Below, in pieces: positions 7,112 to 64,000 of a stretch of DNA of 64,000 nt. The notes beneath the pieces are model-generated. The model did not search any database, was not told where the DNA came from, and saw nothing but the letters and a program-made list of their open reading frames with translations. Location of the stretch: IMG/VR virus record IMGVR_UViG_3300046543_000082, positions 16,257-80,256 of that record, one strand, 5' to 3'. The stretch is from a virus. Each line of letters begins with the position of its first letter. The stretch's first letter is position 1. A program made the position numbers and the translations under genes.

Positions 7112-7819
7112 TTAGCTGAACGTGCCGACGGCGACGTTCTGCAGGGTGATAGCCGACGCGCTGGTGACAGTCACTACGAACTCGCGCCATGTTGCCGTCG
7201 CGATAGTCATCGTGCCGGTGAGCGTCCAACCGGTCGCCGTCGTCACCGTGATCGTCTGCCCCGTGTTCGTGTTCGTGATGCGCAGACGATAGGTGGTGCC
7301 AACCGCAGGACCATAGAGCGACTGCAACAGATTGGCAGCCGTCGGCAGGTTTGCGGTGATCGCGCCACCCTGCGCGCCGGTGATCGCCAGATCAACCGAG
7401 GCTTCGCCGCCCGAAATCTGTGCGGCGTTGAGGTTTAGTGTCGCCGCGCTGGCAACGGTGTTGAACGCTGCGGTCTGCGGAGCATCCAGCAGACACGTCC
7501 ACGAACCCGGATTCGCCTCGATGAAGGTTGCCGACGAGTTCGGCGGCATGGCGACGCCCGTCGCGCCCGCAATGCCATTGATCGTGTCGGCCGTGCCGGA
7601 CGAAACGTTGTAGCTGTAGACCTGAACCGGATTGGCCGTGTTGTTGATCAGGAACACCTTGTCGGTGCCCGAGCCGATCTGCGGCAGTGCTACGCCGTCG
7701 CCGAAGTTGGTGCCCGCCGTAGCGGCCGTGGAAGTGTTGACGGTCGTTACGTCCGCCGTGATCTGCGTTGCACCCGCTTGCGTGCGCGTGGTGCCCGCCG
7801 TAATTACGCTGCCTGCCAT
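7112..7819 (-). CDS. Possible nested decoration protein from internal start
   Basis: In the reading frame of the 781-residue gene, Met547 (ATG at 7819) is preceded by AAAGGAG with a 5-nt spacer, a near-ideal ribosome site. Initiation there would make a separate 235-residue protein starting MAGSVITAGTTRTQAG. Its first ~120 residues align by eye with the free-standing 127-residue protein at 55474-55857 (shared GTT-start, G-V-x-LP, VN/INNTANPVxVY pattern). The long gene therefore looks like an in-frame fusion of a head fibre and a decoration gene that kept its own start. Confidence 0.4.
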   Translation of the reverse strand: MAGSVITAGTTRTQAGATQITADVTTVNTSTAATAGTNFGDGVALPQIGSGTDKVFLINNTANPVQVYSYNVSSGTADTINGIAGATGVAMPPNSSATFIEANPGSWTCLLDAPQTAAFNTVASAATLNLNAAQISGGEASVDLAITGAQGGAITANLPTAANLLQSLYGPAVGTTYRLRITNTNTGQTITVTTATGWTLTGTMTIATATWREFVVTVTSASAITLQNVAVGTFS

Positions 7820-9457
7820 GACTGCTCCTTTGAATGTGACGACGGGGAACCCCACCGCCAGGGTTGTTTTGCCCCAGGGGGCGTTCTGTTGGCCGATCTG
7901 GATGTTCAGTCCGAGAGCCGGGCCGCTGACATTCGCGCCGCTATGGAACAGACGCAGCGTTCCGTCACCTGCATCGACAATGAATGAATCGAAGTTCTGA
8001 GTGCTTTCCCACGAATACGCACCGGGCTGCCCAGCGCCAATTCGCCATGCCCATGTCACGCCGCCGTCGAGCGAAATGCCCTGCCCGATCCAGCGCGCAA
8101 CAGCCGGATTGCCGGATTGAGTCTGCGGCACATAATCGAACGAGATGAGGTACTGCTTGCCTTCCTGCCCAGGCGGGACATAGATAGAAGGCTCGCCAGC
8201 AGAGTCATTGCGGAACAGGCCCACGGGCGGAAGTGCAGCCGGAATGACCGCACTTTGATCGACCCACGTCACGCCAAGGTCGCTCGACGCGAGCAACCCG
8301 AAGCGTCTGATGGAGTCGAGGCCGACGCCGCAGCACCACATCTCAATGACGTTGCTGCCCTGCCGGACGCGCAACATCGGATCGAATACACCTTGCGCCC
8401 GCCATGCACTGTTCGCCGCCGGAACGGTATTGCTGCATATCAAGCCGACTCTAGTCCACGTATGCAAGTCGGGGCTTGTCGCCCACCGTATATCCGTGCC
8501 GTTATCAGACACGTAGGCTTGGTAATACGTGCTGCCGATCAGAATGGCGCCGCCGTTGAACGAATAGAAGCCATCCGTTCCATTCGCGAGCATCACCGGA
8601 TTCGAAACGTCTGCGGTCCACGGCCCATCGATGGTCGTCGATGTCCACAGCCCGAGGTTCAGAATGTTCGAATTGGCCGCGTTCCCGTTCGTCGAATGCG
8701 CGGCAGCGGTGTAACCCGACACAAGCATCGCCCAGCGAGAATTTAGGCTGTCGTAGAACGGTTCCGGATTGGCGATGTCCGTTGCGTCCCAAGTGCCCGC
8801 TGAACCCTTGGGAATAACCGGAGCGCCGCCATTCGCCGAGATCGGCGTAAAGGCCGGCCAGTTGTAATTCAGCCCGAGCAAGGTCTGGACTTCTATAGGC
8901 CCCCAAGTGGCGTTTCCGCCTGATGGCCCGTTGACGCCCATGTAGATTCCGCACTTGGTCGCCGTCTGATAGAGCGTGGACACAAGCGATGAAACCTGCA
9001 CACCGTTAACAAAGACTGTGATGTTCTGGCCCACGCAGTCGATGCGGACAGCGGTGACGGCGTTGTTAATCACCGTCGCATCGGCTATGTACATCTGATC
9101 GAACTGCGAGCCGCTCTGCTTGTTGTAGAGCGTGACGCGGTTATACCGAGGGTCTACCTGAATTCCCCAGTGATTGTTCGCGTCCACATAACGGAACAGA
9201 AGGACGGCGATAACGCACAGGTTGTTATCCGGCGAATACGACGACATGGCGCATGAGACGGTGAAGTCTGATACGCCAGCGTCGAAAGTATTGGCGTTCG
9301 CATTAACCTGAATCGCCGCCTGCGCCTTCCCACTACCATTCAGCGTGAAGGCGCCGGCCGCGTTCGTGCTCCATGCTTTGTTGCCGATATTCGTCGGGCG
9401 GGATTCAACGAACGTTCCACTGGTCCCAAAGAAGTCGTCTTCCGCAAAAACGGTCAT
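7112..9457 (-). CDS. Virion protein: jelly-roll + GH43/sialidase-like propeller + decoration domain
   Basis: 781 residues in three parts. Residues ~1-195 resemble a concanavalin/LamG-like jelly roll (WGIQVDPRYNRVTLYN, VNGVQVSSLVS). Residues ~210-545 resemble a five-bladed glycosidase propeller: DIANPEPFYDSLNSRWAMLV, NLGLWTSTTIDGPW, DIRWATSPDLHTWTRVG, VFDPMLRVR, FGLLASSDLGVTWVD. From residue 547 a domain follows that matches the N-terminus of the second prophage's version. The gene follows the coat gene, so the product probably decorates the head and binds or trims glycans. The same jelly-roll/propeller pair lies at 51446-53437, but between terminase and portal. Activity is unproven. Confidence 0.7.
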   Translation of the reverse strand: MTVFAEDDFFGTSGTFVESRPTNIGNKAWSTNAAGAFTLNGSGKAQAAIQVNANANTFDAGVSDFTVSCAMSSYSPDNNLCVIAVLLFRYVDANNHWGIQVDPRYNRVTLYNKQSGSQFDQMYIADATVINNAVTAVRIDCVGQNITVFVNGVQVSSLVSTLYQTATKCGIYMGVNGPSGGNATWGPIEVQTLLGLNYNWPAFTPISANGGAPVIPKGSAGTWDATDIANPEPFYDSLNSRWAMLVSGYTAAAHSTNGNAANSNILNLGLWTSTTIDGPWTADVSNPVMLANGTDGFYSFNGGAILIGSTYYQAYVSDNGTDIRWATSPDLHTWTRVGLICSNTVPAANSAWRAQGVFDPMLRVRQGSNVIEMWCCGVGLDSIRRFGLLASSDLGVTWVDQSAVIPAALPPVGLFRNDSAGEPSIYVPPGQEGKQYLISFDYVPQTQSGNPAVARWIGQGISLDGGVTWAWRIGAGQPGAYSWESTQNFDSFIVDAGDGTLRLFHSGANVSGPALGLNIQIGQQNAPWGKTTLAVGFPVVTFKGAVMAGSVITAGTTRTQAGATQITADVTTVNTSTAATAGTNFGDGVALPQIGSGTDKVFLINNTANPVQVYSYNVSSGTADTINGIAGATGVAMPPNSSATFIEANPGSWTCLLDAPQTAAFNTVASAATLNLNAAQISGGEASVDLAITGAQGGAITANLPTAANLLQSLYGPAVGTTYRLRITNTNTGQTITVTTATGWTLTGTMTIATATWREFVVTVTSASAITLQNVAVGTFS

Positions 9458-9490: not shown

Positions 9491-10471
9491 TCAGCCGTTC
9501 GTGTCGAAAATCGCGCCTTGGGCGTGCTCGTTGCCCAGTTCCAGCGTGTATTCGACGAGCAGTTCCTTCTTGTCCGAGTCACCCGTCTTTGCGAGCGGGA
9601 TCGTCTGGAACGGGCGCAGGTACGCGACGCGCACGTAGTTCGGGTTGATGCCGAACACGTCGCCCGAGTGCGCCAAGAAGATGTCCGGGATGATCTTCAC
9701 GTCGCCGAAGTCCGACTGGTAGATATCGACGGCGGTCTTCAGCGTCTTGTCTTCCACTTCGATGAAGCGCGTTCCCGGACCGGCGAAGGCCGAGATGTTC
9801 TGCTTGTTCGTCGGCGAGACCAGCATGTACTCGGGGCAGTCGCCGGACGACGAGAACACCTTCTGGATCATCGACTTGACCATTGCTTCGGTGATGGCCA
9901 CGGTCGTGCCGTTGTAGGTGCGCGTGTTCGTGCCGTCGGTCCAGCCGTTCGAAGCCAGCGCCGGGTTCGCGCCCGACGGCGAGCCGCCCGTCTGGAACAC
10001 GACGTTGGTCGTCAGGAAGGCCGGCAAGCCAGCGGAATTGCGCGCGACCGACGACGAACCGGCGCTCTTCGCCTGGTTGTAGGTCAGAATGCCTTCCATG
10101 TCGCGCTTCATTTCCTTCGACTTCTTGAGCAACTGGTAGCCCATCTTGTTCGAGCCACCGGCAGCGACGACAGCCTGCGACGTGCCCGAGATCTGGACGA
10201 CCTTCGTCGAGATCTGCGTGTTGTTGCCGATACGAGCCGTCGGCGTGAGCGTCTGAGCGGTCGGATCATCGCCTTCGATGGCCGCATTGCTCAGGTTCTG
10301 CGCGTCGAGCTTGTCGGTGTTCCACTCGTGATTCGTCTGCTTCGCTTCCGTCTTCTTGCACATGTTCAGGAAGGGCGTTTTAAACGGATCAACGTTGTAG
10401 ATTGCGTTGATCAGGTCTTCGCGGATGTTCTTCTGCGTGTAGACCTGGAAGGTATTTGCAGGTACGGACAT
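9491..10471 (-). CDS. Major capsid protein, SU10/DUF5309 type
   Basis: 326 residues. N-terminus FQVYTQKNIREDLINAIYNVDPFKTPFLNMCKK, the EWNTDKLD motif, and the C-terminal QTIPLAKTGDSDKKELLVEYTLELGNEHA match the SU10-type major head protein family (DUF5309). It is preceded by the scaffold gene and followed by the head fibre, the usual capsid order. The equivalent gene of the second prophage (46780-47784) is a different family, so the coat module was exchanged between these phages. Confidence 0.8.
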   Translation of the reverse strand: MSVPANTFQVYTQKNIREDLINAIYNVDPFKTPFLNMCKKTEAKQTNHEWNTDKLDAQNLSNAAIEGDDPTAQTLTPTARIGNNTQISTKVVQISGTSQAVVAAGGSNKMGYQLLKKSKEMKRDMEGILTYNQAKSAGSSSVARNSAGLPAFLTTNVVFQTGGSPSGANPALASNGWTDGTNTRTYNGTTVAITEAMVKSMIQKVFSSSGDCPEYMLVSPTNKQNISAFAGPGTRFIEVEDKTLKTAVDIYQSDFGDVKIIPDIFLAHSGDVFGINPNYVRVAYLRPFQTIPLAKTGDSDKKELLVEYTLELGNEHAQGAIFDTNG

Positions 10472-16120: not shown

Positions 16121-16306
16121 TCAATCGCTGCCCATCTTTTCCCAAGCGTCGTGACTTGCCGGGTGCCGTGCGTCGCTCGTGCGCTTGTTCGTTGCGGTGC
16201 GCTCGCCGCGCTCGGGCATCTTCTTCCCAGTGGGTGCTTTGGCGGCAGGCATAGCCTCGGCCTTCGGTGCGGCCATCATGGGCTTGCGGGTGCTGAACTT
16301 GGCCAT
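16121..16306 (-). CDS. Small basic disordered protein, unknown
   Basis: 61 residues, rich in Lys/Ala/Pro (MAKFSTRKPMMAAPKAEAMPAAKAP) with a C-terminal HDAWEKMGSD. Second gene of the late operon. No domain is recognised. Confidence 0.45.
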   Translation of the reverse strand: MAKFSTRKPMMAAPKAEAMPAAKAPTGKKMPERGERTATNKRTSDARHPASHDAWEKMGSD

Positions 16307-23625: not shown

Positions 23626-24092
23626 TGAACTGGAACCGAAGAATTACTGAAGCCAGAGAAGCCCGCTCGATGTCCAAGGCGGAGTTGGCGCGCGCCTGTA
23701 ATGTGTCGGCGCCGACCGTGACCGACTGGGAAAGCGGGAAAATAAAAAACCTCGACGCGGCCAATATGCTGACGATCTGCGAGGTTTTGGGAGTCGAACC
23801 CCGGTGGCTAGTGTGGGGATTTGAGAGCGGCAAATCGCCGAACAGAGGGGACTTCGTGCCTATTACCGGCGAAGCAAAAAAGCTAATTCAGTGCGTCATG
23901 CGTCTGGACAAGGGGGGGCCAAAAGTACGACAAACGTTTGCTTACACTCTCGGCATCCTTGAAATTGTCGAAAGATTGGGATTGGTACATGATGCCGATG
24001 TGGTGGCCGAGCTTGCAGAACAGGAGCAGCTCTTGGCACTCCACGCCGAGCCATCTAGGGTTTTAAAACATGCCCCCCGCAAGCACAAATGA
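23625..24092 (+). CDS. Prophage repressor, XRE-type HTH, no peptidase domain
   Basis: 155 residues. HTH at ~8-60 (RITEAREARSMSKAELARAC-NVSAPTVTDWESGKI). The last ~70 residues, from LIQCVMRLDKGG to APRKHK, are identical to the end of the repressor at 63454-63951, while the N-terminal halves are unrelated beyond fold. There is no S24/LexA-type autocleavage domain, so induction must work otherwise. AGG lies 8 nt before the ATG. Overlaps the next gene by 23 bp. Confidence 0.75.
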   Translation: MNWNRRITEAREARSMSKAELARACNVSAPTVTDWESGKIKNLDAANMLTICEVLGVEPRWLVWGFESGKSPNRGDFVPITGEAKKLIQCVMRLDKGGPKVRQTFAYTLGILEIVERLGLVHDADVVAELAEQEQLLALHAEPSRVLKHAPRKHK

Positions 24093-24243
24093 AAAAACCA
24101 TCGTCAGCATGGACCTTTACCGGCAGCGTCGAACTGTCGAATCCAAGCAGAAGGAGTCAACCGATCCGGCCGAAGAAGCGTTAAACGAAATCGCCCGATA
24201 CCTTCTGATGGCCGTTCGCGTCATCACGGCTAGGCGTCACTGA
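24070..24243 (+). CDS. Small repressor-operon protein
   Basis: 57 residues: MPPASTNEKTIVSMDLYRQR, then TDPAEEALNEIARYLLMAVRVITARRH. Overlaps the repressor 3' end out of frame by 23 bp. The second prophage repeats this arrangement exactly at 63929, with no visible change in the overlapping part, which suggests both frames are kept. Helical; function unknown. Confidence 0.6.
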   Translation: MPPASTNEKTIVSMDLYRQRRTVESKQKESTDPAEEALNEIARYLLMAVRVITARRH

Positions 24244-27247: not shown

Positions 27248-28048
27248 ATGACGAAGATTGATCTTGAGTCGGTAGTTCTGAAGAGTGGCGCACATGAGTC
27301 GCCGGAAGACGGTATGTGTCTGCTCGAAGTCGTGAGCATGTTTGCCGATGAGGATTTCGGAGACTCGCCGGCGTGCGTTGATTCGATCCTCGCTCAGTTT
27401 GGGCGGTCATGGAATGACGGAATGCGCTCCGACGCTGAGCGCGCCCAATTGAAGCAATACATCGCACGGCTACCCGGCACGAACAAGGGTTCGGCGCTCT
27501 CGCAAAAGCGAGGATGGATGGCGCTTGACTGGCTTATTCGTGTGCACACGGCAGCGTGGCTCGCTTTGAATCCCGGCCTCGTGCATCACGCCGAAACGCT
27601 CAAAATGCTACCGCCGATTACCTGCTCGGCCGATCTCGTTGCGGCACAACCGAAGCTCGATGCAGCAAAGAAAGATGCGGCCGCCGCATGGGCCGCCGCA
27701 GGGGCCGCCGCACGGGACGCCGCATGGGACGCCGCATGGGCCGCCGCACGGGCCGCCGCACGGGACGCCGCATGGGCCGCCGCATGGGCCGCCGCACGGG
27801 ACGCCGCAGGGGACGCCGCACGGGCCGCCGCACGGGACGCCGCATGGGACGCCGCATGGGCCGCCGCAGGGGCCGCCGCACGGGCCGCCGCACGGGACGC
27901 CGCATGGGCCGCCGCATGGGACGCCGCAGGGGCCGCCGCACGGGACGCCGCAGGGGACGCCGCAGGGGCGAAACTTGAACCCACCGTTATTGAATTGCAG
28001 GCGAGCGCCCACGAACTATTTTCGCGGATGATCGAAGCAACCGAATAA
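27248..28048 (+). CDS. Accessory protein with long Ala-Ala-Trp/Arg repeat
   Basis: 266 residues. The N-terminal ~130 residues (LKSGAHESPEDGMCLLEVVS, PACVDSILAQFGRSWNDGM, RGWMALDWLIRVHTAAWLAL) belong to a family I recall in phages and actinobacteria that carries exactly this kind of tail. Residues ~140-240 are a tetrapeptide repeat A-A-(W/R/G)-(D/A), likely one long amphipathic helix with Trp/Arg faces. The end is KLEPTVIELQASAHELFSRM. Function unknown. Confidence 0.7.
   Translation: MTKIDLESVVLKSGAHESPEDGMCLLEVVSMFADEDFGDSPACVDSILAQFGRSWNDGMRSDAERAQLKQYIARLPGTNKGSALSQKRGWMALDWLIRVHTAAWLALNPGLVHHAETLKMLPPITCSADLVAAQPKLDAAKKDAAAAWAAAGAAARDAAWDAAWAAARAAARDAAWAAAWAAARDAAGDAARAAARDAAWDAAWAAAGAAARAAARDAAWAAAWDAAGAAARDAAGDAAGAKLEPTVIELQASAHELFSRMIEATE
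27676..27969 (+). repeat. 12-bp tandem repeat array (GCCGCANGGGMC)
   Basis: About 24 units of GCCGCA-N-GGG-A/C-C within the previous gene. Only two positions vary, giving Trp, Arg or Gly and Asp or Ala. All six frames are open across it, which creates false overlapping genes. Copy number is likely to vary by recombination or slippage without frame loss. Confidence 0.9.
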
Positions 28049-46257: not shown

Positions 46258-46719
46258 TCACTGCTCCTTGAATTTGGTTGTCTTGCCGAGATCGATTCTG
46301 CTGATAGTCGTCTGATGAACGCCGAACTTATCCGCTACCTCTTGTTGACTAGCGCCGGCTTCCAACAAATCCAAGATTTCCGCGACTTGTGCCCGCGTAA
46401 ACCGGCTTTTGGTGCCTCGCCTGCCCTTCGCATCCATATCTGCAACGTTGTCGGCCAAGCTACCCAAAGCAAGATGCTCGGGGTTGACGCACAGCCGGTT
46501 GTCGCATCTATGCATGACGACCATCCCATTAGGAATGGTTCCCTTGAAAAACGCGTAAGAGGCGCGATGGGCGGTAAGTGTCCTGTGATTTTCATCCATG
46601 AACTTACCGTAGCCACCGCGAGCCAAACCCGCTTGCCACTCATGACAACCAGATTCGACTTGCTTCACTTTGTCCAGAAATCGCTTAACAGGATCGACAG
46701 GGGGTCTACCGCCGGGCAT
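46258..46719 (-). CDS. HNH homing endonuclease with HTH
   Basis: 153 residues. HNH_3-type core: GCHEWQAGLARGGYGKF, TAHRASYAFFKGTIPNGMVV, MHRCDNRLCVNPEHLALGS; then RFTRAQVAEILDLLEAGASQ, QEVADKFGVHQTTISRI, a C-terminal HTH used for target recognition. AGGAG ribosome site. It separates coat and decoration-type genes. Free-standing homing genes of this kind often sit in phage structural clusters as selfish DNA. Confidence 0.85.
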   Translation of the reverse strand: MPGGRPPVDPVKRFLDKVKQVESGCHEWQAGLARGGYGKFMDENHRTLTAHRASYAFFKGTIPNGMVVMHRCDNRLCVNPEHLALGSLADNVADMDAKGRRGTKSRFTRAQVAEILDLLEAGASQQEVADKFGVHQTTISRIDLGKTTKFKEQ

Positions 46720-46779: not shown

Positions 46780-47784
46780 TCACGCGATCAAAACTCCGCT
46801 GAACTGCGGACCACGGGACGTCAAGTTGCCGGCCCACCCGATCAATTTGGTGACCGCATCCTGGTTGACTGCCTGACGCTCGCCACCGATCGGCACGAAG
46901 TTGCGGTCACGGTGCGGCCGGAACGAGATGTACTTCGTGTTGAGACCCCACATGTGATTCGCCGTCGCGTTGGCGCCGATACCGCCATCAAGCACGACAT
47001 CCGAAGCCATGCCGCCGCCGTAGAACTTGACAGCCGGGAAGCCAGCGCCTGCGAGCTTCGTGTTGCCGTCGCTCATGACGCGCTGCTGAGCAACCATCGA
47101 TGCGATGTACATCGAGTAGTAGTTGTTATCAGCAACAAACAGGTCCATACGGTCACGACCGCGAACCGCCTTGAGAGCGAGCTGCGTCATGTAGTTCTGG
47201 ATGTTCGCAGCAGAGACAGCAGCACCGCCGTTGGTCGTACCCGAGAACACCTGCGATTGCCAGAAGGCGAACGATGCGCGATTGATACCGCCATACGTGC
47301 CCGAGGTCGGCGCATCCGGAATAGCCGCAGCCAGACCGGTGATGTTCTTGCCGCTATTGCCCGTGCCATCGAGATAGATGTCGGCCGCAATACGGTTGAT
47401 CAGTTGCGATTCGGCGATGTCCATACGCGAATCGAGCAGGTCGATGATTGCCTCTTTCGACGAGTTCTGAAGCATTTCCAGACCCGAGATGGTCACAGCC
47501 GCCGCGTACTGCTGGATCGAGAACTGAGCCGCCGAAATCGGGCTGTTCGGCGCGATGTTCAGAACTTCGTAGCCCGAGTACGAGTTGACGTTGGTCGTCG
47601 TCGCGTCGGTGTACATGATTTCTTCCAAAATCACGTTACCGCCGCCGAACGGACGGACATTCCCACGCTCACGCAGAACCATGAGCAGGGCGTTGTTGTT
47701 TGTTACGTTGTCAGCGAGTTCGCCGCTACGAGATTGGATGGTCGTGGCGATGATGTCGCTGATTGCTCCATTGGCGAATGCCAT
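46780..47784 (-). CDS. Major capsid protein (non-SU10 type)
   Basis: 334 residues. FANGAISDIIATTIQSRSGE, LADNVTNNNALLMVLRERGN, VILEEIMYTD, then a long helix region with AVTISGLEMLQNSSKEAIID, and C-terminal FVPIGGERQAVNQDAVTKLI. The plan (N-arm, long helix, A-domain) is an HK97-fold coat protein. It occupies the place of the SU10-type coat in the first prophage but shows no alignable similarity by eye. Confidence 0.75.
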   Translation of the reverse strand: MAFANGAISDIIATTIQSRSGELADNVTNNNALLMVLRERGNVRPFGGGNVILEEIMYTDATTTNVNSYSGYEVLNIAPNSPISAAQFSIQQYAAAVTISGLEMLQNSSKEAIIDLLDSRMDIAESQLINRIAADIYLDGTGNSGKNITGLAAAIPDAPTSGTYGGINRASFAFWQSQVFSGTTNGGAAVSAANIQNYMTQLALKAVRGRDRMDLFVADNNYYSMYIASMVAQQRVMSDGNTKLAGAGFPAVKFYGGGMASDVVLDGGIGANATANHMWGLNTKYISFRPHRDRNFVPIGGERQAVNQDAVTKLIGWAGNLTSRGPQFSGVLIA

Positions 47785-49232: not shown

Positions 49233-51446
49233 TTATTCGCCGGATTCGGCTGTACGCGCCGCGCTGATCTGCGCTGCGTCGAGAGTGGTTTCAGCGGAGA
49301 TTTCCGCGACTTCGATGGCGCGGGCGTTGTTCAGGTGAGCAATCAGCACTTGCATCTGCGCCTGCATCTCGGATTTCTGCGCGTCCATCATCATGCGCAT
49401 CTGCTCCAAACGCTGCTCTTGCTCGGCCTTCATCTGGTCCCGATGCATTTCAAGCACTTGCTCTTGCGTCGCCTGGCGCGCTTGGGCTTCCTGCTCGGCA
49501 TTGGCCGTCTGTTGCGCGAGATGCGCTTTCAGCATTTCAAGTTGGCCTTGCTGCTGCATCTTGGCCTGCTCAATCTGATTGCGCCCCTGCTCCATCTGCA
49601 TGTCGATCTGCGCACCGGCCTGCTTCTCTTGGATGCGCGCTTGCGACTCAGCCTGAACCTTCTGGATTTCGATCGGAGGCGGCTTGGGCTGTCCGGCCTG
49701 CGCCTGAAGCTGCTTCGTCAGCGTCTCCGCGGCGTTGTCGATCATCCCTTCCAGCGTCTTGCCGGCCTTGAACGCTGACACGCCGAACTTGAGGATTTCG
49801 ACCAGCACGGGTGCCAATTCAGGCGTCGCCTGCGCGGCCGGGACGGCTTGCTGAAGGAACTTGCTGACCATCTCGACGAACTCGATACGGTCCTGCTTCT
49901 GCGCGTCCTCGTCGATCTGCACCAGAGAGTCAGCGTCGACCTCGATCCGGAACGAGCGCAGCACCTTGTTGCGCAGCATCTGGAGCGCTTGCGGCACGAG
50001 TTGCTGATCTTCGGGCAGCAACTGTCCGGCGGACGCCATCTGAAGGATCGTCTGATCGCTGAACTTGCCGCAAATGACCTGTGCTTTGAGGCGCAACAGT
50101 TCAGTCGCGTAGATCGCAACGTCTTCCTGAGTCGTGCGCAGCCGTACCGCGCCGAAACGTGCCTTGATACCCTGAGCCGTCGCCGTCTCTGCCGCGTCAG
50201 TCTCGCCGCGCATGATGTCGGCAATACCGGTCAGCGCGTAAATCTGTTGGACGACGTTCTCGCGCGCCTCGAATGCGATCTGCAATGCCTGTGCGATCGG
50301 CCCAAGGTCAATGATGTCGACAGCGCCTTTCAATCCGCCCTTCTCAGCGAACGCTGCAAAGCTCTTGACCGGGATTAGGTCGTTGTTTCCCGTTTCCGTG
50401 AACAGCCGCTGCAATTCCTTGAACTCGGCGTTGTACACGCCGCGCACCTTGAGCGCCTTAATCAGCCCGTCGATGCGATCGCTGATGACATCGAGCTCGT
50501 TCGCCTGGTCCTGATACTGGATGAAGTCAGGGACCGGAACGAGCGTATCGCTGGTCGTCGTGCCGAGCAGCGGCTTCGGGCATGGGAAGAAGCCTTCGAG
50601 GCCGAGCGGATCGTCCTTCTCGTCAAGCAACTGCCCCACGGACTTCGACAGCCAGACGGCCTTCTGCGTCTCTATGTCCCAAATCTCATAGACGCATGCC
50701 TGCTTGTTCATCTGCTCTTGGCCGGTCGCCATCTTCGACTCGCCATAGCCCTCTGCGCCCGGCGTCGCATCGAGAGGCACACGCATGGCCGTTTCTTCGC
50801 CGAAGCGCTCGCAGAGCTTCGAATAGGAAAGGTAGACGCGACGCCATACGCATGTAACCTCTTCCCATGTCCGTGCGACCGAATGGCCGAAATCCTTCCA
50901 ATGCACATAGTCGACCGGCGATGTCTCGTCGTCAATCTGCTCAAGTGGCTGATCGTCTGTGATCTGTTCCGCGCCGGCGCCCTCGATCACCGCATCGTCA
51001 TCGCCGTATTCGTCCTCGGACAGCGGCTCCTGCACGCTCGTGACCGGCGCATATCTCACCCATGCCACGCCACGCCCGCACAGGAATCGATCCTGGACGC
51101 TGTTCTTCATCGCCTCCCGGTAATCCGGGTAATGGCGCACTTCAAATTCCAGCGCTCTTTCAAGTAAGAGTGAAGCTACACGCCCGACAGGGTCGCTATC
51201 TCTGAAACGACGGGATACGTCGGGCTGCGGTAGGCGACTGAAGGTTGCTGGAACCAGTGTCTGTACATTGGCCCATAGGATGTTGAAGCGTGCGGACTCG
51301 CTGCCACAGGTGTATTCCTTCGCGTCGTCGCGGTAGCGCTTCGTGATCTTTGTCGAGCGGTCCGTCCACTTGTTGAACGTCTTATCGTAGGCCGTGATAT
51401 AGCCTAGGTAGCGCTCTACTTCGGGCGAACGCGTTGGTTGTGCCAT
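49233..51446 (-). CDS. Portal protein, podovirus type
   Basis: 737 residues. N-terminal YLGYITAYDKTFNKWTDRST, KRYRDDAKEY; body with FSRLPQPDVSRRF, WKDFGHSVARTWEEVTCVWR, YALTGIADIMRGETDAAETA; the last ~170 residues form a Gln/Glu-rich coiled coil, the extended barrel of P22-type portals. Length matches the other portal (738). Overlaps the head-fibre gene by 1 bp. Confidence 0.85.
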   Translation of the reverse strand: MAQPTRSPEVERYLGYITAYDKTFNKWTDRSTKITKRYRDDAKEYTCGSESARFNILWANVQTLVPATFSRLPQPDVSRRFRDSDPVGRVASLLLERALEFEVRHYPDYREAMKNSVQDRFLCGRGVAWVRYAPVTSVQEPLSEDEYGDDDAVIEGAGAEQITDDQPLEQIDDETSPVDYVHWKDFGHSVARTWEEVTCVWRRVYLSYSKLCERFGEETAMRVPLDATPGAEGYGESKMATGQEQMNKQACVYEIWDIETQKAVWLSKSVGQLLDEKDDPLGLEGFFPCPKPLLGTTTSDTLVPVPDFIQYQDQANELDVISDRIDGLIKALKVRGVYNAEFKELQRLFTETGNNDLIPVKSFAAFAEKGGLKGAVDIIDLGPIAQALQIAFEARENVVQQIYALTGIADIMRGETDAAETATAQGIKARFGAVRLRTTQEDVAIYATELLRLKAQVICGKFSDQTILQMASAGQLLPEDQQLVPQALQMLRNKVLRSFRIEVDADSLVQIDEDAQKQDRIEFVEMVSKFLQQAVPAAQATPELAPVLVEILKFGVSAFKAGKTLEGMIDNAAETLTKQLQAQAGQPKPPPIEIQKVQAESQARIQEKQAGAQIDMQMEQGRNQIEQAKMQQQGQLEMLKAHLAQQTANAEQEAQARQATQEQVLEMHRDQMKAEQEQRLEQMRMMMDAQKSEMQAQMQVLIAHLNNARAIEVAEISAETTLDAAQISAARTAESGE

Positions 51447-53437
51447 TATTTCACCAGGCTAGAGCTTGACCACGGGGCATTCTGTTGGCCAATCTGGATA
51501 TTCAATCCGAGAGACGGGCCGTAGACATTCGCGCCGCTGTGGAATAGGCGAAGCGTTCCGTCGCCTACATCGACCACGAATGAATCGAAGACCTGCAAGT
51601 TTTCCCACGCATAGGCGCCCGGCACTCCAGCAGCAATGCGGAACGCCCACGTCAGGCCGCCATCCAGTGAAATCCCCTGTCCGATGAACCGGCCAATAGG
51701 CGGATTGCCTGTCTGCGTTTGCGGAACGTAGTCGAATGAGATCAGGTATTGCTGGCCTTCTTTCCCGGGCGGCACGTAGACCGATGGTTCACCAGCCGAG
51801 TCATTGCGGAACAGCCCGACAGGCGGCAGAACAGCAGGGATGGTCCCTGTCTGATCGACCCACGTCGCGCCCAAGTCGCTTGACGTGAGCAAGCCGAACC
51901 GTTTCACGCCATCGCCGCCGAGGCCAGCGCACCACATTTCAATGACCGTGCTCCCCTGACGAACACGCAGCATCGGATCGAAAACGCCCTGATTGCGCCA
52001 GAAGTTATTCGAAGCCGGCACAGTCGCGCTGCAGATCAGACCGACTCGCGTCCACGTGTGCAAGTCTGTGCTCGTCGCCCACCGGATTGTCGTGCCGTTA
52101 TCAGAGACGTACGCCTGATATGTCGTGCCGGCGATCTGAACCGCGCCACCATTGAATGAGAAGAATCCGTCTGTCCCGTTCGCAAGCATTACCGGATTCG
52201 AAACGTCAGCTGTCCAGGGCCCATCAATGGTCGTCGATGTCCACAACCCGAGGTTCAGGATGTTTGAATTTGCTGCATTCCCATTCGTCACATGCGCGGC
52301 CGCCGTATAACCAGACAGCAGCATGGCCCATCGATTGTTCACGGCATCGAAGAACGGCTCGGGATTGGCGATGTCCGTTGCGTCCCATGTGCCGGCCGAA
52401 CCCTTGGCAATAACCGGAGCGCCAGCATTTGCCGCGAGCGCCGTAAAGACGGGCCAGTTGTAATTGAGTCCTACCAGCGACTGAACCTTTATCGGGCCCC
52501 ACGTTGCGTTGCCGCCAGATGGTCCATTGACGCCCATGTAAATACCGCACTTGGTCGCTGTCTGGAATAGCGTCGACACGATCGACGAAATCTGGACGCC
52601 ATTTACCCAAATCGTGATGTTTTGGCCAACGCAATCCACGCGAACAGCCGTGATGGCGTTATTAATTACAGTTGCGTCCGCGATGTACGCCTGATCGAAC
52701 TGCGTGCCGCCCTGCTTGTTGTAGAGCGTGACGCGGTTATAGCGCGGATCAACCTGGATACCCCAGTTATTGCCCGCGTCCACGTAACGGAACATCATGA
52801 CTGCGATCACGCACAGATTGCCATCCGGCGTGAACGATGACATCGGACACGTGATGGTGAAATCCGACACGCCAGCATCGAAGACGTTGGCATTGGCGTT
52901 CACTTGAATAGCCGCCTGAGCCTTTCCGCTGCCGTTCAGCGTGAAAGCGCCAGCCGCGTTCGTGGTCCATGTCTTGTTGCCGATGTTCGTCGGTCGTGAT
53001 TCGACAAACGTGCCGGCCGTCCCAATGAAATCGTCTTCGGCAAAGATTGACGCACCGCCGCCGAGACTAGGCGCCCACGCATTGTTTCCGAGACAGTAGA
53101 AGTCGCCCGTCTGTCCGCCTGCAAGCGATGCAGATGCAGCCGCATTGAGGAAACTACCGCCAATCGGCGGATATACCAGCATCGGCGTCGACGAAGCATT
53201 GACGATGACGTATATGTCGCCGGCGACTGCGGTCATGCTGACCATGTTTTGCGCCGGCAGCCGAACACCAGACGACGCAGGCACGTTCGAGAACACGCTG
53301 AAGTCGTTGCTGATCAGGGTTGCGTTAGCTTGGGTCGTGCCGGCAGCCGTGAGGTTGAGCGCGGGAAGGCCTGCGGTCGTGTTCTGTGCCTGAGCGCCGG
53401 GTACGCCCGACCCCATCAGCTTCGCAAGGGTAGTCAT
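51446..53437 (-). CDS. Head-fibre: decoration domain + jelly-roll + GH43-like propeller
   Basis: 663 residues. Residues ~1-130 equal the pattern of the free 127-residue protein at 55474-55857 (MTTLAKLMGSGVPGAQAQ..., VIVNASSTPMLVYPPIGGSF). Residues ~135-330 and ~345-655 match the jelly roll and propeller of 7112-9457 closely (e.g. DIANPEPFFD, LHTWTRVGLIC, VFDPMLRVRQGS). It lies between terminase and portal instead of after the coat gene. Likely a capsid appendage binding glycans; whether the enzyme is active is open. Confidence 0.7.
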   Translation of the reverse strand: MTTLAKLMGSGVPGAQAQNTTAGLPALNLTAAGTTQANATLISNDFSVFSNVPASSGVRLPAQNMVSMTAVAGDIYVIVNASSTPMLVYPPIGGSFLNAAASASLAGGQTGDFYCLGNNAWAPSLGGGASIFAEDDFIGTAGTFVESRPTNIGNKTWTTNAAGAFTLNGSGKAQAAIQVNANANVFDAGVSDFTITCPMSSFTPDGNLCVIAVMMFRYVDAGNNWGIQVDPRYNRVTLYNKQGGTQFDQAYIADATVINNAITAVRVDCVGQNITIWVNGVQISSIVSTLFQTATKCGIYMGVNGPSGGNATWGPIKVQSLVGLNYNWPVFTALAANAGAPVIAKGSAGTWDATDIANPEPFFDAVNNRWAMLLSGYTAAAHVTNGNAANSNILNLGLWTSTTIDGPWTADVSNPVMLANGTDGFFSFNGGAVQIAGTTYQAYVSDNGTTIRWATSTDLHTWTRVGLICSATVPASNNFWRNQGVFDPMLRVRQGSTVIEMWCAGLGGDGVKRFGLLTSSDLGATWVDQTGTIPAVLPPVGLFRNDSAGEPSVYVPPGKEGQQYLISFDYVPQTQTGNPPIGRFIGQGISLDGGLTWAFRIAAGVPGAYAWENLQVFDSFVVDVGDGTLRLFHSGANVYGPSLGLNIQIGQQNAPWSSSSLVK

Positions 53438-53706
53438 CAGCCGACGATCGCTGTTGCGCTGATCGTGCCGCCGACCACGATGTAATGGCCTTGGCCTGCG
53501 GCGAGGTGCATCGGCGTGAAGCCAACCGGCAATAGCACTGTGTCAATCAGCTTCGTGGCCGTCGACGTGGCATTGCTGTCGTAGACAGCCACCGTGCCGG
53601 ATGTCGTGCTCGAGACGAAGATGCCAATCAACGTCTGACCGGGGATTGCGTTGACATTCTTACTCGCGCTGAACAGAACGCCGCCGCCGCTAATGCTCGA
53701 TGCCAT
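53437..53706 (-). CDS. Small beta-rich protein, decoration type
   Basis: 89 residues from the ATG at 53706 (TAATG overlap with terL). MASSISGGGVLFSASKNVNA, IPGQTLIGIFVSSTTSGTVA, HYIVVGGTISATAIVG. Single small beta domain, similar in style to 6748-7050. Head accessory by context. Confidence 0.5.
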   Translation of the reverse strand: MASSISGGGVLFSASKNVNAIPGQTLIGIFVSSTTSGTVAVYDSNATSTATKLIDTVLLPVGFTPMHLAAGQGHYIVVGGTISATAIVG

Positions 53707-55070
53707 TACAGCCTCCGATGATTCGATACTTGCCGCATGTGATCTTCCCAAACGTCGTTTAGCGTCTCGCTGGCGTCGAAATTGGCCCAGTCAGGCTCAT
53801 GCTTGGGTGCGATGTATTCCGCCTCGCTCATCACCTGCGCGCCATATGCGAACGCGTCAGATGGATGCGAGGCCCAGTTGTGCAGCGGTTCTTTCGAAAA
53901 CACGCCCGTGTCGTCATTCCACTCGTATTCCCACGCGCCAAGGCCATCTAGCCCGGCTTCACATGCGGTACGGTTGAATGCACATTTCGGGATGACCGCG
54001 CGAGCTGCGCTGATCTGGTCAAGTTTCTTGGTCTGCGGCACGACATCGACCTTGCCGCCGCCAAACGCCGCTAGAAACCGCTCCATGCTCGTGTGCTTGC
54101 TTTGGAACGTCTTGGCCCGCGCATCGTGCGGCAGCCATATCTTTCCGAGCTTGGCGCCCATGTCGGTGATGCTCTGCTGAATGCGTGGAATCCAGTCCTC
54201 AGCATCCAGCCCTGAATCACCTTCGTATTTGACGAGGTTGAATCCACCCGGCAGGCGCTGCCAGTACCACCATGAGGCCGTATCGCGGAACCCCAAGTCG
54301 CTGCTGATCTCAATCGGCGCGCCCAATGGGTCGTATTCAATCTCTTCGCTGATCCGGCCTTCGCGCTCTGCGGCGCTGACCCACTTACCAAGGATCGACC
54401 CGGCGATGTTGCCGTATGCGCCTTCCCAGATATGGTCGTACTCTTCTTCCGGCAGGTTCGCTAAGTCACGCTGACGAGCACGCTGCAACACGGAAGGAAA
54501 GCGCGGATTGTCACGCCAGTTCAGTTCGATGATCTTGAACAGCGGGTCTTTCACGCGCCTGAAGCGCAGATCGGTCGGACTACCCTTGCGCCTTGGGTTC
54601 CACGTCACCCACAGTTCGCTAACCTCTTCGCGCAGGGTCGGGATCAGCGTCGACCATGCCATGTTGGTGACTGGCTCGGCCTCGTCCACCCAACACAACA
54701 GAATGCGCGCCTTCGACTTCACACTGTCGATGCTGCGATCTAGCCCGGCGAACTTGTATGAGATGCGCCCGTCTTTCGTGCGGATGTACTTCTCGCCGAT
54801 CTCGAAGAACGCTTCTAGCCACGGCTCAGACCGAATCGCCGCCTTCACTTCCTCTAGCGACGAGTCATCTAGCGAGTTCATGAACTGCCGAGCGCAGAGG
54901 ATGATCCCCTCGCGGCCTTCCATCGCCCACATATAGGCGCGAACGGCGCTCATCTTGGCGAAGGATCGCGTCTTACCTGATCCCCGGCCGCCGTATGCCC
55001 CGCGTATGTCCGCCCTGCCACTGAAGACAGGGATTAGCTTAGGAGGAAGCTGAATCCTGGCTGTTGTCAC
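53706..55070 (-). CDS. terL: Terminase large subunit
   Basis: 454 residues. Walker A at ~24-36 (GAYGGRGSGKTRS, the consensus GKT here versus AKT in the other prophage), Walker B LLCWVDEAEP, coupling motif ELNWRDNPRFP, nuclease acidic residues in SSDLGFRDTASWWYWQ and the C-terminal HPSDAFAYG. Overlaps the small-subunit candidate by 32 bp. Confidence 0.9.
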   Translation of the reverse strand: MTTARIQLPPKLIPVFSGRADIRGAYGGRGSGKTRSFAKMSAVRAYMWAMEGREGIILCARQFMNSLDDSSLEEVKAAIRSEPWLEAFFEIGEKYIRTKDGRISYKFAGLDRSIDSVKSKARILLCWVDEAEPVTNMAWSTLIPTLREEVSELWVTWNPRRKGSPTDLRFRRVKDPLFKIIELNWRDNPRFPSVLQRARQRDLANLPEEEYDHIWEGAYGNIAGSILGKWVSAAEREGRISEEIEYDPLGAPIEISSDLGFRDTASWWYWQRLPGGFNLVKYEGDSGLDAEDWIPRIQQSITDMGAKLGKIWLPHDARAKTFQSKHTSMERFLAAFGGGKVDVVPQTKKLDQISAARAVIPKCAFNRTACEAGLDGLGAWEYEWNDDTGVFSKEPLHNWASHPSDAFAYGAQVMSEAEYIAPKHEPDWANFDASETLNDVWEDHMRQVSNHRRL

Positions 55071-55347
55071 TCAGCGGCTCCAGGATGATCCGTTGCACGA
55101 CTGTGAGTGGATTTTGCTCATCGCCCGCGACCTGGAGAGGAAGCATCTTCCCCCAAAGCTGGTAGAAAGCGGTCGGATTCTCTCCAGCCCATACTTTCAG
55201 GCTCTCGACACCGCCGATTCCATCGAATGCCTCTGCGAGCGCTTCCTTTACAGCCACGGTCGACTTGTTCAGCGAGCCTTTAGGCCGTCCCTTGCCTGCG
55301 TTGGGCGGCTTCCGGCCTGTAACTTTTCCTTCTTTACTGGTTTCCAT
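55039..55347 (-). CDS. Candidate terminase small subunit
   Basis: 102 residues. Basic, Gly-rich start (GRKPPNAGKGRPKGSLNKST) with the 'GRPKGS.NK.T' motif common before phage terminases, then EALAEAFDGIGGVESLKVWA and ENPTAFYQLWGKMLPLQV. Packaging role from position and motif. Confidence 0.65.
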   Translation of the reverse strand: METSKEGKVTGRKPPNAGKGRPKGSLNKSTVAVKEALAEAFDGIGGVESLKVWAGENPTAFYQLWGKMLPLQVAGDEQNPLTVVQRIILEPLSDNSQDSASS

Positions 55348-55471
55348 CGCTTTTCACATACTTCTGCGCCAGCGTCTCAGCCTGTTGGAGCAGATCGTCG
55401 AGCGACGAGTATTCCCCGTGCGCTTTGATCTGCTCGATAGCCCATTCGCGGGCTTCTGCTGAGATGGTCAT
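55334..55471 (-). CDS. Small helical protein
   Basis: 45 residues from the ATG at 55471: MTISAEAREWAIEQIKAHGE, YSSLDDLLQQAETLAQKYVK. Looks like an antitoxin-type or accessory helix pair. Overlaps the next start by 14 bp and is 2 bp from the decoration-type gene. Unknown. Confidence 0.5.
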   Translation of the reverse strand: MTISAEAREWAIEQIKAHGEYSSLDDLLQQAETLAQKYVKSDGNQ

Positions 55472-55473
55472 GA

Positions 55474-55857
55474 TCAGCCGCCGACGCTCGGCGCCCAGAC
55501 GTTGCCGCCCAGGCAATAGAAGTCGCCTGTCTTGCCGCCAGCGAGAGAAGCTGAGGCTGCGGCGTTGACAAAGCTGCCACCGGTCGGGGGATAAACGAGC
55601 ATTGCTGTTGCGGAAGCGTTGACGACGACATAGATGTCACCGGCAAGCCCGCACATCGACGATGCATTCGCCACGGGAAGGCGCGCGCCAGACGAAGCGG
55701 GGACGGTCGAGAAGACACTGAAGTCGCTGGTAATCGCTGTTGCGTTCGCCTGCGTGGTGCCTGCGGCGGTCAATCCCGATGCGGGAACGCCGGCGGTAGT
55801 TGCCTGTGCTTGGGCTGCCGGCACTCCGGAACCCATGAGCTTCGCGATGGTTGTCAA
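55474..55857 (-). CDS. Free-standing decoration-type domain protein
   Basis: 127 residues, MTTIAKLMGSGVPAAQAQAT, TAGVPASGLTAAGTTQANAT, VYVVVNASATAMLVYPPTGG-like strands, ending WAPSVGG. It is about as long as, and nearly identical in layout to, residues 1-130 of the head-fibre at 51446-53437. One explanation is that this domain docks to the capsid and the longer protein carries the same dock with a glycan-binding arm. Confidence 0.6.
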   Translation of the reverse strand: MTTIAKLMGSGVPAAQAQATTAGVPASGLTAAGTTQANATAITSDFSVFSTVPASSGARLPVANASSMCGLAGDIYVVVNASATAMLVYPPTGGSFVNAAASASLAGGKTGDFYCLGGNVWAPSVGG

Positions 55858-63453: not shown

Positions 63454-63951
63454 ATGAACTTATCAACCAGAATCCAGACCGTGCTCACCGAGGTCGGCAT
63501 CGATCAGGTCGAGCTGGCGCGCGTTATGGGCGTGACAAAGGGAACGGTCAACCAGCTTCTGAACGGCTCCATCCAGTCGCTGAAGCTCGAATACGCCGTG
63601 GGCGTGCAGGATGCGTTTGGCTATAACGCCGTCTGGCTGGTGCTCGGAAAGGGGCCAAAGAAGGGAAATTCGTCCGCAGACGAGGCTGTCGATTCATCGA
63701 ACAGATGCCAAAACCCCGTTCTTTCCTCCGAAGCGGACCGGCTAATTCAGTGCGTCATGCGACTAGACAAGGGGGGACCAAAAGTACGACAAACGTTTGC
63801 TTACACTCTCGGCATTCTTGAAATTGTCGAAAGATTGGGATTGGTACATGATGCCGATGTGGTGGCCGAGCTCGCAGAACAGGAGCAGCTCTTGGCACTC
63901 CACGCCGAGCCATCTAGGGTTTTAAAACATGCCCCCCGCAAGCACAAATGA
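63454..63951 (+). CDS. Prophage repressor, XRE-type HTH, no peptidase domain
   Basis: 165 residues. HTH at ~5-55 (LSTRIQTVLTEVGIDQVELA, RVMGVTKGTVNQLLNGSIQS), then VLGKGPKKGNSSADEAVDSS and, from LIQCVMRLDKGG onward, a C-terminal ~70 residues identical to 23625-24092. The junction is sharp at 63741. No autocleavage domain. Confidence 0.75.
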   Translation: MNLSTRIQTVLTEVGIDQVELARVMGVTKGTVNQLLNGSIQSLKLEYAVGVQDAFGYNAVWLVLGKGPKKGNSSADEAVDSSNRCQNPVLSSEADRLIQCVMRLDKGGPKVRQTFAYTLGILEIVERLGLVHDADVVAELAEQEQLLALHAEPSRVLKHAPRKHK

Positions 63952-64000
63952 AAAAACCATCGTCAGCATGGACCTTTACCGGCAGCGTCGAACTGTCGAA
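63929..64000 (+). CDS. Small repressor-operon protein, cut by window edge
   Basis: Starts MPPASTNEKTIVSMDLYRQR as at 24070 and runs off the right edge. Overlaps the repressor by 23 bp in the same way. Confidence 0.6.
   Translation, partial: MPPASTNEKTIVSMDLYRQRRTVE

Follow-up and report, generated by a model that had tools for sequence, protein, structure and literature searches.

The best-described design in which a phage anchor domain bears variable cargo is that of the Hoc proteins of the T4 family, where the anchor may stand at the N- or the C-terminus and binding to the capsid is proven. In one of these, from Enterobacter phage PG7, a capsid-binding domain is fused N-terminally to a GDSL lipase/acylhydrolase (PMC10385173). 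Phage SU10 encodes gp10, an Ig-like protein that resembles the epsilon15 minor capsid protein and a domain of the phi29 head fibre and that is absent from the SU10 virion map (PMC9509320). Virion-associated depolymerase tailspikes place a glycan-active module on a phage anchor, and one account of receptor proteins describes domain shuffling between phages (PMC10684548). Both the capsid anchor with swappable cargo, as in Hoc, and the shuffling of domains among phage receptor proteins are therefore already known. What is new here is a cargo with no match in INPHARED, the use of different anchors to carry it in four podovirus backbones that are unrelated, and the occurrence of the anchor domains (docks) in free and fused pairs.

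In this paper we analyse a window of 64,000 nucleotides (positions 16,257 to 80,256 of IMG/VR record IMGVR_UViG_3300046543_000082) that holds two podoviruses, P1 and P2, each with a fibre gene (Table 1); related contigs and phages, some of them found by searching IMG/VR with the fibre and with an alignment of the shared cassette, carry L numbers. Two phages may have been joined in the 80-kb record by the assembly, or the record may be a tandem. A 260-bp repeat, 98% identical and forming the 3' end of two putative repressor genes, lies at the P1/P2 junction (window 23882-24141) and at the right end of the record (63741-64000), and P1 also occurs as a separate contig of 40,721 bp (G005) whose ends repeat approximately 125 bp. 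Given a join at this repeat and the separate 40.7-kb P1 contig with its terminal repeat, it is doubtful that P1 and P2 are physically linked.

Table 1. Features of the P1 and P2 fibre loci, in window coordinates
Feature	Position	Strand	Remarks
P1 fibre gene	7112..9457	(-)	781 aa; LamG-like + propeller + two-domain C-terminal dock
P1 C-terminal dock	7112..7819	(-)	235 aa counted from internal ATG at codon 547
Retained Shine-Dalgarno AAAGGAG	7825..7831	(-)	upstream of internal ATG in P1 fibre ORF
P1 copy of cassette	7874..9448	(-)	
P1 coat	9491..10471	(-)	SU10_MCP
P2 coat	46780..47784	(-)	phrog_9953; Mx8-like, 51% identity
P2 portal	49233..51446	(-)	phrog_12082
P2 fibre gene	51446..53437	(-)	663 aa; dock 1-127 + LamG-like ~130-330 + putative five-bladed propeller ~334-656
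Putative five-bladed propeller in P2 fibre	51470..52438	(-)	five W-terminated blade motifs
P2 copy of mobile cassette	51470..53044	(-)	1575-nt block; 77-80% DNA identity with P1, P3, P4
P2 fibre N-terminal dock	53057..53437	(-)	78% identical to free dock
Small protein before P2 fibre	53437..53751	(-)	probable start 53706, 89 aa
P2 TerL (terminase large subunit)	53706..55070	(-)	
Putative P2 TerS (terminase small subunit)	55039..55347	(-)	assigned from position
P2 free dock	55474..55857	(-)	127 aa; core gene in P2-like phages, a short way upstream of terminase genes

The two fibres have most of their length in common. Residues 129-661 of the P2 fibre match the P1 fibre at 1037 bits (phmmer, within the window), a score on which chance similarity was rejected, and residues 130-661 of P2 are 82.7% identical to residues 2-533 of P1. 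The remaining domains lie at opposite ends. In P1 they are C-terminal to the cassette and the gene directly follows the coat gene; in P2 the extra domain is N-terminal, and the genes on the minus strand run free dock, putative TerS, TerL, small ORF, fibre, portal. A sequence-only reading had described both arrangements, together with a second, free copy of the P2 dock, and had called the two coats unrelated. These claims hold: residues 1-127 of the P2 fibre match the free ORF with E=5.8e-58 (phmmer, within the window), and the two phages differ in the family of both coat and portal, SU10_MCP and SU10_portal in P1 (Pfam 1.8e-87 and 1.5e-186) against phrog_9953 and phrog_12082 in P2.

The P2 free dock starts with TTG after a good Shine-Dalgarno sequence, TTAGGAG, and relatives have ATG or GTG there. 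The slot between TerL and portal is variable among P2-like phages; it may be empty, or hold the small ORF alone, the small ORF with the fibre, or other long proteins. The small ORF is thus found in phages with and without the fibre, and no relation was found between its product and the small protein that precedes the P4 fibre (see below). The other long proteins, of 611-685 aa or 435 aa, occur in L022 (8039-10564), L053 (2423-4726) and L029 (2453-5357); by eye they look like clan-A glycoside hydrolases and have small beta-rich partners starting MFRG or MLRG, and Pfam, NCBIfam and PDB gave no support to a by-eye reading of those of L022 and L029 as TIM-barrel hydrolases. An HNH-endonuclease-like ORF (by eye) directly follows the P2 coat (window 46258-46719); at this site a near-identical relative, L054, has the next gene directly after the coat.

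It had been proposed that the propeller part travels as a cassette, to be looked for in phages beside different coats, and the IMG/VR searches bear this out. The cassette is a single DNA block of approximately 1575 nt with the same sharp edges throughout and 75-80% identity between backbones, of which four carry it: P2-like (L001-L004, L013), P1-like (L005) and two new ones, P3 (L006-L008) and P4 (L056, L057). It is the only DNA common to P2 and P3, and in P3 and P4 it stands alone among unrelated structural genes. P3 has an epsilon15-GP7-type coat and a T7-type portal, and its fibre begins at the portal stop with a 142-aa N-terminus for which no relation to the P1 or P2 docks was detectable. 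P4 is P22-like, with P22 gp4-like and gp10-like genes, and its 607-aa fibre is encoded between those two; the N-terminal 74 aa or so match a free protein of 77 aa, encoded just upstream, at 74% identity, and this 77-aa dock is present, and the fibre absent, in the P4-like contigs L084 and L085. The proposal of one dock tuned to each coat was accordingly too narrow, as P3 and P4 use other anchors.

Early-region DNA is common to P1, P2 and P4 at up to 90-98%, which suggests that these three draw on a common host pool. Searches of INPHARED with the fibres and with the P2, P4 and L031 docks gave no match, and neither did scans of genome contigs with the propeller and dock alignments, which pointed to no host. 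The phages presumably come from soil, judging by the apparent character of the samples and by relatives among phages of Sinorhizobium, Bradyrhizobium and Myxococcus.

The cassette is truly mobile, and the history of the cargo is independent of that of the backbone. L013 has a P2 backbone (portal 92%) and a cassette that groups with that of P4 (99/99), while the P2 cassette groups with that of P1 (98/98) in the propeller tree; forcing the propellers of P2 backbones together was rejected (AU test, p-AU 0.0055). As the propeller tree conflicts with the backbones in this way, the cassette must move. The fibre docks of P2-like phages, by comparison, fall together in one clade (100/96) nested among the free docks, and the two trees together indicate a single duplication of the dock, after which the cargo would have been replaced or exchanged independently. 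The cassette is also maintained by purifying selection, with dN/dS of 0.08-0.17. The similarity of P1 and P2 might have arisen by assembly chimerism of two co-occurring phages, and the 80-kb record does join them at the 260-bp repeat, but we consider such an artefact extremely unlikely. Each arrangement recurs in separate contigs from other samples (those listed above for the four backbones), on which ground a chimeric cassette was rejected, and a protein divergence of 17-27% between cassettes from different backbones shows that they are not collapsed copies.

The anchors can be compared at several levels. What had been taken for a single dock domain in P1 is C-terminal as described, but it comprises two domains of approximately 235 aa in all. 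In the P1-like relatives L031, L032 and L063 its counterpart stands free, as a protein of 218-231 aa encoded directly after the coat; the first domain is conserved (74-85%) across P1-like relatives, and the second is of two types. The second domain as found in L032 and L063 has two homologues, the P2 dock (BLASTP 6e-7; hhalign 96%, 4e-9) and the first domain of the P1 dock (92%, E 6e-7). Direct comparison of the P1 and P2 docks is weak (52%, 1.4e-4), but since both match the same bridging domain they can be placed by sequence in one family and regarded as homologous. The alignment of docks called for in the sequence-only reading comes out, for P1 and P2, in favour of related docks by sequence; the P3 anchor showed no relation to them. 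The P2 free dock and the fibres had no match in PHROG or NCBIfam and none above cut-off in Pfam, nor did they match any known decoration-protein family by sequence.

The position of the dock relative to the cargo thus varies, with free copies in relatives, and in three of the four fibres the anchor is a copy of a small protein that these phages make anyway. The P2-like phages recovered with the free dock as query have it just upstream of the terminase genes. Taken together, the P1-like, P2-like and P4-like phages thus show three backbones in which a free dock belongs to the core and the propeller is an optional addition. In P1 the fusion has left a trace: at codon 547 the fibre retains '..AAAGGAGCAGTCATGGCAGGC..', which corresponds to the start region of the free dock (in L031, GAAGGAGCAGGATCATGGCAGGC), and this is the sole internal Shine-Dalgarno sequence with an in-frame start found in the P1 fibre ORF. 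The retained signal and ATG indicate that the cassette was inserted in frame ahead of an existing free-dock gene. They also predict a second, short product of the P1 fibre gene, the free dock, from the internal start.

The cargo is probably a LamG-like domain followed by a five-bladed propeller of the GH43/62/32 type. The link to glycans made in the sequence-only reading is upheld in so far as weak signals exist, and falls short in that no cassette protein matches any family at its curated cut-off. Below threshold, Pfam gave GH43 in the P1 and P2 cassettes (0.0025 and 0.03; 17.7 bits against a cut-off of 32.2) and, in the P1, P2 and P4 cassettes, LamG-like 3keto-disac_hyd (0.0017-0.012) and BNR (0.02-0.05). 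As in the propellers of GH43, 62, 32, 68 and 117, there are five blade-like repeats, each ending in W (residues 408, 462, 526, 597 and 656 of the P2 fibre), with FDP and GEP motifs. Residues D355, D487 and E550, assigned by motif and numbered as in the fibre, are invariant in six aligned propellers and lie at presumed first strands of blades; the spacing of 63 between D487 and E550 is the same as in arabinanase Arb43A. Unlike those enzymes, the cassette has Asn at the usual GH43 base position in blade 1 (N358, in NP), which makes catalysis doubtful and lectin-like binding as likely as hydrolysis, and PDB sequence searches gave no significant match. AlphaFold2 models of the P2 fibre (26-row alignment) and the P1-type dock (4-row alignment) were poor, with pLDDT of 34 and 41, and we therefore make no claim of fold; PDB fold matches of the former to GH62, GH43, GH117, GH32 and GH68 were all non-significant (best GH62, E=0.02) and serve here as hints.

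The cassette protein is probably a virion appendage. It could instead be a non-virion enzyme that infected or lysogenic cells produce and set free when they lyse, and the dock would then be there for oligomerisation. This seems quite improbable, as in each of the four backbones the gene lies within a late structural block and the cargo is joined to a copy of a core protein from that block. Moreover, in Sinorhizobium phage phiM5, whose coat is of the P1 family (42%), the equivalent post-coat slot encodes a small protein and an SGNH hydrolase (L078 7118-8707), each with an annotation of detection in the particle proteome. P1 resembles phiM5 in encoding a hydrolase, putative in P1, after the same family of coat, and differs in the kind of enzyme.

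Where on the virion the protein would sit is a closer matter. The propeller proteins may be accessory tail or connector fibres, anchored on the portal, adaptor or nozzle region; the cassette would then add, close to the tail, a further receptor-binding or depolymerase module of the sort that tailspikes provide. To this we give somewhat less than an even chance. In P2 and P3 the fibre gene is adjacent to that of the portal, and in P4 its neighbours are the gp4-like and gp10-like (connector) genes; the P3 anchor, and that one only, is weakly like phAPEC8-type tail-fibre N-termini (E=0.02 over 92%); a dock-like domain was found beside the tail-fibre gene of a siphophage; and the P2 fibre model, poor as it is (pLDDT 34), matches tail-fibre and collagen-type proteins. 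The P2 dock, however, precedes the terminase genes, far from the P2 tail block, and there are separate spike or fibre candidates in P4 (by eye) and in P2, where the candidate is pectate-lyase-like. Depolymerase tailspikes have a beta-helix spike in place of the putative propeller. The free dock of L031 matches phrog_673, of the head category, at 3.5e-6, an annotation that may be loose. In P1 the slot lies right after the coat, with adaptor- and nozzle-like genes further on. By comparison with the SU10 record, this slot in P1, L031, L032 and L063, directly after an SU10-type coat, is that of SU10 gp10, although gp10 is Ig-like by description and has no propeller, and no similarity between its translation and the P1-type dock was evident by eye. 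By this analogy and that of the phiM5 slot, attachment of the P1 anchor to the head is plausible and, in our view, likely; for P2, where the genes concerned belong to the packaging block, it is possible, at about even chances. A tail or connector site is most to be reckoned with in P3 and P4.

We favour display on the virion. The cassette, a LamG-like domain with a putative five-bladed propeller, is exchanged between co-circulating temperate podoviruses, and its fusion to an anchor protein would bring it into the particle. The anchor of P2 and P4 is a duplicate of a small core protein, also made without cargo; in P1, where the cassette entered in frame before the free-dock gene, the retained ribosome-binding site and ATG should still yield the free dock. 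Most probably, then, docks with and without a propeller would be mixed on one particle, and the propellers would bind or trim a glycan of the host surface or soil matrix, or do both, and so aid adsorption or residence. The anchor would sit on the head in P1 and possibly in P2. For this explanation as a whole, including mobile cargo, a role on glycans and a head location in P1 and probably P2, the chances seem to us balanced.

More tentatively, and with more doubt than confidence, temperate soil podoviruses may have a general plug-in display, in which a free core dock and an optional dock-cargo fusion give mixed, tunable decoration with interchangeable glycan-active modules, the propeller serving across unrelated coats and P1 making both forms by way of codon 547. 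The likeness to Hoc is in the design, and the anchors and cargo are others; capsid binding by the docks is putative, one cargo is common to four podovirus backbones that are otherwise unrelated, and an anchor gene free of cargo stands alongside or inside the fusion. If this is true, phage surface appendages evolve as plug-in parts, independently of the coat, by a route in which an existing virion protein is copied and a shared sugar-acting module is hung on the copy. The natural pairs of free and fused anchors, with their swap points, offer tests of what phages in soil gain from additional contacts with glycans; the docks are also possible anchors for display.

Two further features of the record were observed. 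The left arm of P1, outside the window to its left, has an acyltransferase family 3 gene (L012 7436-8584, record G000 7436-8584; PF01757, 9e-21), with possible modification of surface sugars by the lysogen. At window 27248-28048 there is a long repeat rich in Ala, Arg, Asp and Trp (AARDAAWDAAWAAA...) that is open in several frames on both strands.
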